A stretch of 64,000 nucleotides of DNA from Natrialba aegyptia DSM 13077 (lineage in GTDB: Archaea; Halobacteriota; Halobacteria; Halobacteriales; Natrialbaceae). This document shows positions 45,549 through 47,778 of the stretch, one piece after another (position 1 is the stretch's first letter; each line of letters begins with the position of its first letter). Made by a program: the position numbers and the translations under genes. The stretch is taken from NCBI RefSeq assembly GCF_000337535.1, contig NZ_AOIP01000031.1, positions 224,943 through 288,942 of the forward strand, read 5' to 3'. Under the pieces are notes generated by a model, which was not told where the DNA came from, did no database searches, and was given only the letters and a program-made list of their open reading frames with translations.

Positions 45549-46505
45549 CTACTCGTCCCCGCCCTCGGGCGCGCCAACGTCGCTCGCGAGTTCGGCGAGC
45601 GCCGCGAACTCGGCGGGTGCCATCGCGTCGGCGCGTTTTTGCAGCAGGTCCTCGTCGGCCGCGTCGACGACCGCCTCGGGGGCGTCGAGTCCGGAGATGT
45701 GGGCCGTGTTCCGGATCGCGTTTCGAATCGTCTTTCGGCGCTGGGTGAACAGCGCCTTGACGAACCGGAGGAAGAAGTCCTCGTCGGCGACTTCGTAGTC
45801 GGGCTCACGGGGACACAATCGCACGACTGCACTTTGGACCGCCGGCGGCGGCGAGAACGCCTCCTTCGGAATCGACTCGACGAGTTCGGCGTCGGCGTAG
45901 TGTTGAGTCGATACCGAGAGTCGACCGTACTCGGACGTGCCGGGCTCGGCCACCATCCGTTCGGCGAACTCCTGTTGGAACATCAAAACGAGCGGCCGTC
46001 CCTCCGGAAGCAAGCGAAACGTGATCTCGCTCGAGACGCCGTAGGGCAGATTCGACACCGACGCCGTGAACTCGGGGAGGTCGACCTCGAGCGCGTCGCC
46101 TTCGATCACGGTCAGTCGCCCGGCGTCGATCTCGTCGCTGAACTCGGTGCGGAGGAAGGATGCGAGTTCGCTGTCGCGTTCGACGACGGTGACCCGGTCG
46201 GTTTCGGTGCCGAGTTCGAGGAGGCGGTCGGTGAGTGCGCCGGTGCCGCCGCCGATTTCGAGGAGGTGGCTGGTGTCGATGGTGTCGGGGGCGGTCTCGG
46301 TGTCGGGGGCGGTCTCGGTCTCGGGAGCGGTCGTGGTTTCAGTGGGAGTTGTGTCGGCCTCGGTACCGGTGGTTTTCTCGGGATCACAGTCCGTCAGATA
46401 GGTTGGCAGTCGGTCGAGGACGCGGTCGTCGACGAGAAAGTGTTGATCGCGGTCCGGATCGCCGCGGACGCCTGCGCGGGCGATCAGTCCGTCTGGATCT
46501 CTCAT
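45549..46505 (-). CDS. rsmA: 16S rRNA dimethyladenosine transferase RsmA (KsgA)
   Basis: This 318-residue enzyme dimethylates two adjacent adenines near the 3' end of 16S rRNA. The motifs are DQHFLVD, the SAM loop LEIGGGTGALTDRLL, VVERDSELA, and the catalytic SNLPYGVSSE. Between the N-terminal region and the SAM loop sits a Thr/Glu/Pro-rich insert of about 30 residues (ETETAPDTETAPDT), coded by three 18-bp repeats. This insert is absent from typical archaeal members. The gene belongs to the leftward L21e-Rpo4-DUF655 block but is separated from it by an opposite-strand response regulator. Confidence 0.92.
   Translation of the reverse strand: MRDPDGLIARAGVRGDPDRDQHFLVDDRVLDRLPTYLTDCDPEKTTGTEADTTPTETTTAPETETAPDTETAPDTIDTSHLLEIGGGTGALTDRLLELGTETDRVTVVERDSELASFLRTEFSDEIDAGRLTVIEGDALEVDLPEFTASVSNLPYGVSSEITFRLLPEGRPLVLMFQQEFAERMVAEPGTSEYGRLSVSTQHYADAELVESIPKEAFSPPPAVQSAVVRLCPREPDYEVADEDFFLRFVKALFTQRRKTIRNAIRNTAHISGLDAPEAVVDAADEDLLQKRADAMAPAEFAALAELASDVGAPEGGDE
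46281..46334. repeat. three 18-bp tandem repeats inside rsmA
   Basis: The plus-strand unit GGTGTCGGGGGCGGTCTC occurs twice exactly (46281-46298, 46299-46316) and once with changes (46317-46334). It encodes the Thr/Glu/Pro insert of RsmA on the minus strand. Confidence 0.85.
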
Positions 46506-46632
46506 TGCTGGCGCTATGGGGAGAGATGGTGTAAACGCACCGTCTCGAGGTCGGGTCGGTTTCCGTTCGCCGATGTGATCGGCAGTGAGAATGAATCCTC
46601 GTTGTTTTACCCTCCCGCGAAAATGTAGGTGT

Positions 46633-47094
46633 ATGAGTTTGGATGTGGAGGATGAGCCGATCGAAATTTTACTCGTTGAGCCCAGTCCTGGTGACACTCG
46701 GCTCTTCACGGAATCGTTCAAGGACGCGAGCCTGACGAACAGCGTGCATACGGTTTCGGACGGAGAAGAGGCATTGGATTTCGTTCATCAGCGCAATGCC
46801 TACAGCGACAAGCCACAACCCGATCTTATTCTACTCGAACCGCAATTACCCGGGACGAGCGGGTTCGATGTTTTGTCGGAACTGAAAAACGAGGAGGCGT
46901 TGTGCGACATTCCGGTCGTCGTTCTGACGAGTTCAGATGTGGGGGAGAAGATCGTCAAGTCACACGATCTCGACGCGGAACACTATCTCCAGAAGCCGGT
47001 CGAGTCGGACGACTTCATCGAGTTCGTTCAGTCGGTCGAGAATTTCTGGTTGACAATCGTACAGCAGACGACGCCGACGCAGGAGCAGGGGTGA
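46633..47094 (+). CDS. receiver-domain protein with Asp-to-Glu substitution
   Basis: This 153-residue single receiver domain is similar to the Rcp1-like haloarchaeal response regulators (EILLVEPSPGDTRLFTESF; VVVLTSSDVGE; YLQKPVESDDFIEFVQSVE). The phospho-acceptor Asp of the usual LLDLNLP is replaced by Glu69 in LILLEPQLPG, and the acidic pair before it reads E16-P17 instead of E-D. The conserved Thr/Ser (99-100) and Lys121 are kept. It is probably not phosphorylated and may be locked in an active-like state. It is on the strand opposite the translation operon, between DUF655 and rsmA, with an AGGTG ribosome site. Confidence 0.85.
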   Translation: MSLDVEDEPIEILLVEPSPGDTRLFTESFKDASLTNSVHTVSDGEEALDFVHQRNAYSDKPQPDLILLEPQLPGTSGFDVLSELKNEEALCDIPVVVLTSSDVGEKIVKSHDLDAEHYLQKPVESDDFIEFVQSVENFWLTIVQQTTPTQEQG

Positions 47095-47175: not shown

Positions 47176-47778
47176 TCAATGGTCCTGTTCCTGTTCGTGG
47201 CGACCGACGAACGTCTGGTATTTGAGGTCCTCGTCGCGCAGTTCCTGGATGATGCGTTCGACGATGATCTCGTCGGGGTCGTGGAGGCCGGAGACGCGTT
47301 CTGAAAGTTCTTCGAAGCTCTCGAAGGGTTTGCGCTTTCGTTCGTCGAGGATGCCGTTGCGGAGTTTCTTCCCGATCCCGGGCAACAGGTTGAGTTGGTG
47401 GAGTCGGAGCGTAATCGGTTGGGCGTCGTTGTAGAAATCGACGAAGCGCTGTTCGTCTTCCTCGACGAGGTCGGCGACGACGTATTCGAGTTCGGACTGT
47501 GCGCCGGAGGAGAGGGCATCGTACTCGACGCGGTTGGCTTCGGTGACGATATCGCGTTCGGCCGGGGGTTCGATGGCGACTTCGCTGCCGATGGTGAGGC
47601 GTTCGTCCTCGTCGAAGGCGACTTCGTAGAGGCGAAAGTCAGTGGTGTCGAGTGCGTACCCGGCGGGTGACTTCGCGTACTGCGGTCGGCCGTCATCGGA
47701 GAGCCCGTGTGCGAGGTAGTCCAACACGACTGCGCGCCGAACGTCCGTCCCGTCGCTATCGACTTCGCTCATTGTCAT
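47176..47778 (-). CDS. DUF655 family RNA-binding-type protein
   Basis: This 200-residue archaeal protein has an N-terminal OB-like part (AVVLDYLAHGL; FRLYEVAFDEDERLTIGSEV) and a C-terminal helix-hairpin-helix region (LHQLNLLPGIGKKLRNGILD then PFESFEELSERV). DUF655 genes are regularly found between the RNA polymerase subunit Rpo4 and KsgA genes, which suggests a role in rRNA or translation, not yet proven. Two ATGs two codons apart are possible starts. The gene is 39 bp downstream of rpo4. Confidence 0.88.
   Translation of the reverse strand: MTMSEVDSDGTDVRRAVVLDYLAHGLSDDGRPQYAKSPAGYALDTTDFRLYEVAFDEDERLTIGSEVAIEPPAERDIVTEANRVEYDALSSGAQSELEYVVADLVEEDEQRFVDFYNDAQPITLRLHQLNLLPGIGKKLRNGILDERKRKPFESFEELSERVSGLHDPDEIIVERIIQELRDEDLKYQTFVGRHEQEQDH

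Follow-up and report, generated by a model that had tools for sequence, protein, structure and literature searches.

A conserved stand-alone pseudo-receiver of Natrialba with proline and glutamate at the metal-binding and phospho-acceptor positions

Pseudo-receivers (PsRs) are defined, in the available sections of a 2025 review, as receivers in which at least one of the conserved positions DD, D, T and K is missing (PMC12632262). Within this group and among the aspartate-less receivers (ALRs), glutamate is the commonest replacement of the phospho-acceptor and the second acid of the metal-binding pair is usually lost (PMC4395418 and PMC12632262, both available in part). The same portions of the review state that glutamate at position D can partly activate many regulators and that in some PsRs it has been shown not to be what makes them active; how the bacterial PsRs are switched is called a mystery there, though such proteins are common, and for archaeal PsRs no functional work had been published to its authors' knowledge (PMC12632262). 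Plant pseudo-response regulators (PRRs) are described as acting without aspartate phosphorylation (PMC4395418, PMC12632262, available parts), and replacement of the glutamate of Chlamydia ChxR by aspartate or alanine did not abolish DNA binding (PMC4395418, available part). The receiver EpsW appears to need phosphorylation, and the equivalent single substitutions yielded no constitutive form and led to loss of function according to the accessible text of PMC4671073.

The receiver described here is encoded on the plus strand at positions 46633-47094 of the window, i.e. the whole stretch of 64,000 nucleotides of Natrialba aegyptia DSM 13077 DNA that was analysed. The open reading frame translates into a single-domain receiver of 153 amino acids, residues 12-132 of which match Pfam Response_reg (PF00072) with an E-value of 8e-16 and 58.6 bits, compared with a gathering score of 30.2. 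The first acid of the metal-binding pair is retained as Glu16 and the second is replaced by Pro17 (codons GAG CCC, 46678..46683, plus strand), while the phospho-acceptor position is occupied by Glu69 (GAA, 46837..46839, plus strand); both sites lie where a preceding sequence-only reading had placed them. The alignment further depicts the conserved switch threonine Thr99 (46927..46929, plus strand) as well as the switch aromatic residue Tyr118 at position K-3 and the conserved Lys121 (codons 118 to 121, 46984..46995, plus strand), and Pro73 and Gly77 are retained at D+4 and D+8. With proline at DD2 and glutamate instead of aspartate at D, the protein is, as read from its translation, a pseudo-receiver of the aspartate-less type by the definition in the available part of PMC12632262, and it is no canonical phosphorylatable response regulator, which would have the acid pair and the acceptor aspartate. 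As both the metal ligand and the acceptor aspartate are missing, normal phosphorylation is unlikely.

The EpsW equivalog (NF041866) is the top NCBIfam match; its score of 51.9 bits lies far below the curated cut-off of 200, and this assignment was rejected. A role as defence gene was discarded as well, PADLOC having returned 0 families. A literature search, mostly confined to papers available without subscription, found no paper on the gene, and none turned up in the available parts of PMC5847659 and PMC3403918. A second Glu-type copy is present in the same genome (L033, C30:425972-426391), in which the switch residue Thr99 is replaced by methionine.

An AlphaFold2 model calculated from an alignment of 49 rows shows the five strand-helix repeats of a receiver in (beta-alpha)5 order with a mean pLDDT of 78, and the closest PDB folds to this model are Rcp1, at the top, and RcpA. 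A sequence search of solved structures returned a Burkholderia receiver (5te9, 6e-29), followed by Rcp1 and RcpA (1i3c and 1k68, 1e-24 and 5e-23), and hence an Rcp1-type relationship is found by sequence as well as by fold. The PhoB double mutant D10A/D53E (2jb9), titled constitutively active, occupies rank 21 among the fold matches. Wild-type and other PhoB structures score similarly among these matches, so that this match reflects the shared fold only. Residues are equated here with those of CheY and Rcp by equivalences that are presumed.

The gene is present in all seven Natrialba genomes searched, always antisense between the DUF655 and rsmA genes, with named matches of 99% in N. taiwanensis, 98% in N. 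asiatica and 72-73% in three others. Glu16, Pro17, Glu69, Thr99, Tyr118 and Lys121 are invariant in all seven, and synonymous codon changes are found at four of these six sites. The ratio dN/dS (NG86) amounts to 0.03-0.17 in 20 of the 21 Natrialba pairs and to 0.34 in the remaining one, and judged from these values the gene is under purifying selection, and a pseudogene was rejected on this ground. Given the same place in all seven genomes, the recurrence of Glu16, Pro17 and Glu69 and the low dN/dS, the open reading frame is not a chance one. Whether orthologues share Glu69 had been posed as a check; they do in 7/7 cases, together with Pro17, and since glutamate is also found in most relatives collected, a strain-specific mutation was dismissed.

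In order to place the protein among its relatives, 115 distinct receivers were collected, matches spanning less than 111 residues and identical cores having been removed before counting. They comprise 75 sequences with P17 and glutamate, 21 with P17 and aspartate and 19 with an intact acid pair and aspartate, and by this comparison the window protein is a member of a haloarchaeal subfamily marked by P17. The resulting share of glutamate, 75 of the 96 distinct P17 sequences, is not a population frequency, because the patterns of the named-genome scan favoured EP and Glu and several loci were picked by the EP pattern. When the P17 motif was sought with a strict DNA pattern, 47 of 392 genomes of the host order matched, seven of which lie outside the host family, in three other families; the P17 sequences from six genomes outside the host family and L018 from a seventh all carry glutamate.

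A tree was calculated from 96 of 98 rows, two near-duplicates being omitted, and with columns 17 and 69-70 excluded. The 18 canonical rows fall on one side (support 100/96), and 13 P17/Asp rows group as a clade (100/90). A third clade (100/99) unites the full set of 62 Glu rows with three Asp rows, of which L016 and L027 are basal and L010 lies inside. The first split of this Glu clade is weak (90/54). The minimum number of changes over the three states is 3, and the fewest-changes reading suggests one gain of glutamate and one reversion to aspartate in L010, the latter suggesting in turn that glutamate may at times be dispensable. Rooted on the canonical rows, the tree would have the metal ligand lost first, in a clade keeping aspartate, and aspartate exchanged for glutamate later. 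A strict search at DNA level for Leu-Leu-Glu following an intact pair, which demanded the exact motif E-D-N-P-G-D and fixed spacing, had hits in 0 of 125 family genomes with each of the two codon starts, whereas the control with Leu-Leu-Asp (GAG start only) had hits in 82 of 125; within the sequences examined, the acceptor glutamate thus occurs only alongside a lost metal site.

The remaining switch residues are largely preserved in the Glu rows of the tree: the threonine in 57/62 (three Met, one Leu and one Ser in the others), the lysine in 62/62 and Tyr or Phe at K-3 in 62/62. Valine at K+2, which favours active CheY according to the available part of PMC12632262, is present in 55/62 Glu rows and in 15/18 canonical paralogues; being equally common in the latter, it does not point to locking in particular.

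Taken as a pair, P17 and Glu69 mark what is, by these comparisons, a conserved and selected subfamily, whose window member retains the receiver fold, the T and K residues and the Tyr-Thr switch pair, with proline at DD2 and glutamate at the acceptor position. The preferred reading, held at roughly even odds (probability about 0.5), is that of a stand-alone pseudo-receiver with Rcp1-like kin that is mostly in the on-state and acts by partner binding, with its output set by dose. Phosphorylation by the usual route would be impossible for the protein; instead, Glu69 would reach toward Thr99 and Lys121 as a built-in phosphate mimic, and the missing metal ligand would lift a restraint. Glutamate as mimic and the lost restraint together would leave the protein mostly in the on conformation, in which it would work through binding a partner, the output being set by the amount made from its own promoter. 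The phosphomimic part of this reading is plausible, and a locked-on state is the leading inference, by analogy with PhoB and the reviewed glutamate mimics. Counter-evidence comes from EpsW, whose function was lost on like changes, from the PsRs whose activity does not stem from glutamate, from the reversion in L010, from the five Glu rows with an altered threonine and from the kinase genes close to some Glu relatives. Extended to the subfamily, it is possible, if not quite probable, that a haloarchaeal locked-on lineage arose by loss of the metal ligand and subsequent exchange of aspartate for glutamate, at the very sites altered in constitutive PhoB, and that the Glu forms then spread with dose as their signal.

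The surroundings of the relatives bear on a different possibility, namely that the protein serves as a decoy or brake, binding a histidine kinase or the partner of a canonical paralogue without accepting phosphate and so competing. Neighbours were counted for 92 of the 96 P17 receivers, those flanked by 2.5 kb or more in both directions. In the P17/Asp clade, 18/18 loci (L122, L123, L134-L137, L182, L185, L187-L190, L192, L265-L267, L269, L273) have a member of a HAD-type hydrolase family (one member identified via Pfam) downstream on the opposite strand, 17 of them at a distance of no more than 160 bp, and none of the 71 Glu loci has it. The Asp group hence keeps one place and the Glu group is scattered, although close relatives within the latter share neighbours. 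No gene family is found near more than 11 of the 71 Glu loci; two reach this number, one being a PAS/kinase-type cluster within 4 kb, only some members of which were checked with Pfam. In at least four Glu loci, namely L116, L173, L264 and L274, the receiver gene is divergently oriented to a gene whose product has a HisKA domain along with PAS/GAF or MEDS domains. At L117 a Glu-type receiver gene lies downstream of, and co-oriented with, a gene for methionyl-tRNA synthetase.

Kinases near Glu loci are odd for a protein that would ignore kinases, and they speak for a competitor, as do the canonical receivers with intact pair and aspartate that are encoded in the same genome; such competitors are moreover a stated PsR hypothesis in the available part of PMC12632262. 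However, Pfam finds no kinase among the five neighbouring genes of the window gene that were searched, and a pure decoy would not need glutamate, yet most of the clade retains it. A decoy is considered unlikely.

Also doubtful is a non-phosphate input, where another modification, a partner protein or a heterodimer would set the activity and Glu69 would be merely structural. Inputs of this kind are reviewed for other PsRs in the available text of PMC12632262. A V-x-[LF]-P tail at the C-terminus occurs in 15/18 canonical sequences by regular expression (16 by eye, the L-P expression having misread L140) and in 11/16 P17/Asp sequences, but it is gone in 64/64 Glu sequences, and the tail-less P17/Asp rows include all three Asp rows within the Glu clade. 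With the loss of this tail, which may have a role in the dimer, a possible oligomer or partner surface would have been altered along with the active site. On the other hand, the phosphate-sensing T and K and the switch tyrosine are mostly kept, more than a free scaffold would call for.

The position of the gene offers a third alternative, that the receiver regulates rsmA or translation through its location. The rsmA gene, encoding the 16S rRNA dimethyltransferase (Pfam and NCBIfam matches), occupies 45549..46505 on the minus strand with its ATG start taken at 46505, and the convergent DUF655 gene (Pfam) occupies 47176..47778 on the minus strand. The receiver gene is 81 bp from DUF655 and 127 bp from rsmA, overlapping neither and on the opposite strand to both, in agreement with the sequence-only reading. 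Among 122 family genomes with a DUF655 match, the stretch after this gene was examined in 115, and rsmA was reached in 105 and missed in 10. A short spacer of at most 300 bp with none of the queried inserts is found in 63/105 loci, bearing out the expectation that both genes are usually neighbours. The longer spacers of the other 42 loci hold the receiver (7), a USP (13), a GNAT-like (4), a lipoprotein-like (3) or a VOC gene (1), or are unmatched (14). One USP-bearing spacer also holds a TnpB-like gene, and a single weak match is among the four GNAT-like ones. For USP, VOC and GNAT one representative each was borne out by Pfam; the lipoprotein-like representative has no Pfam match. The spacer between DUF655 and rsmA (L034-L088, L197-L256) is a recurrent site for differing single genes across genera. 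The receiver is found there in 7/7 Natrialba and in 0/108 other family loci examined, so that its position is genus-specific, as the proposed comparison of gene order in relatives could reveal. Since other genera carry other single genes, the place seems permissive, and the location beside rsmA is, from these gene orders, most likely a landing site and not a functional link.

Promoter-like elements lead to a similar picture. A box GACGGTGCGTTTACACC is located at 46528..46544 on the minus strand, some 30 nt ahead of the rsmA ATG, as identified by family comparison, and a TATA-like TTTTAC at 46605..46610 on the plus strand lies some 28 nt ahead of the start of the receiver, in a block conserved in seven Natrialba. 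The 14-mer form of the rsmA box, GACGGTGCGTTTAC, precedes rsmA with at most two mismatches in 97/105 family loci (57/63 with short and 40/42 with long spacers), compared with 0/2100 shuffles that preserve base composition only, and TTTAC is found 31-32 nt ahead of the rsmA start in 92 of the 97 box-bearing loci. With the box present at short spacers too, rsmA is likely its own transcription unit. Of the earlier description of a gene inserted in a translation operon, the genus-specific position stands and the split operon transcript is not supported; operon disruption was rejected, the box preceding rsmA with or without insert. The GGTG..CACC inverted repeat of GACGGTGCGTTTACACC around TTTACA is nearly invariant across the family and the box has a single exact copy in its own genome, the second-best match lying within a reading frame that was named peroxiredoxin-like by eye. 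The box is longer than a usual TATA element, and a dedicated regulator of rsmA acting via GACGGTGCGTTTACACC is possible as judged from this pattern.

Control of rsmA by the receiver could draw on its position and on the conserved blocks that precede both genes in 7/7 Natrialba, the receiver block containing TTTTA. No sign of rsmA being controlled in antisense was found, as the genes do not overlap and both blocks are conserved. The absence of the receiver from all other family loci, the many places taken by its Glu relatives, the USP, GNAT, VOC or lipoprotein-like genes in the same spacer elsewhere and an rsmA box that is much alike with or without insert render control through location quite improbable. 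A decaying paralogue without function, as the loss of two active-site residues might indicate, is hardly credible in view of the low dN/dS, the conserved upstream block and the retention of both changes across genera.

The family offers canonical forms, metal-ligand-less Asp forms, Glu forms and Asp forms within the Glu clade, mostly 45-70% identical to the window protein, by which each step of the loss of phosphorylation becomes testable in related proteins.

Compared with the described systems, the Natrialba protein shares with ALRs and PsRs a receiver fold without acceptor aspartate and differs in being archaeal and stand-alone, in its P17/Glu69 pair and in its ordered history. Rcp1 and RcpA (1i3c, 1k68) are likewise single-domain proteins and close solved relatives; in the alignment, however, Rcp1 and 5te9 have an intact E-D pair and the acceptor aspartate. 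PhoB D10A/D53E (2jb9) is altered at the same two sites, Asp10 being presumably the second acid and Asp53 the acceptor, equivalent to P17 and Glu69, with loss of the metal acid and exchange of aspartate for glutamate. Yet it is an engineered form of a DNA-binding regulator and carries alanine at the metal site, where the window receiver has proline. Glutamate at the acceptor site is also found in ChxR and the plant PRRs, which are multi-domain proteins with DNA-linked outputs, and EpsW (NF041866) is a single-domain orphan receiver like the window protein. By its residues, its relatives and its selection, the latter is a real and conserved archaeal member of the known pseudo-receiver kind, with an ordered history.
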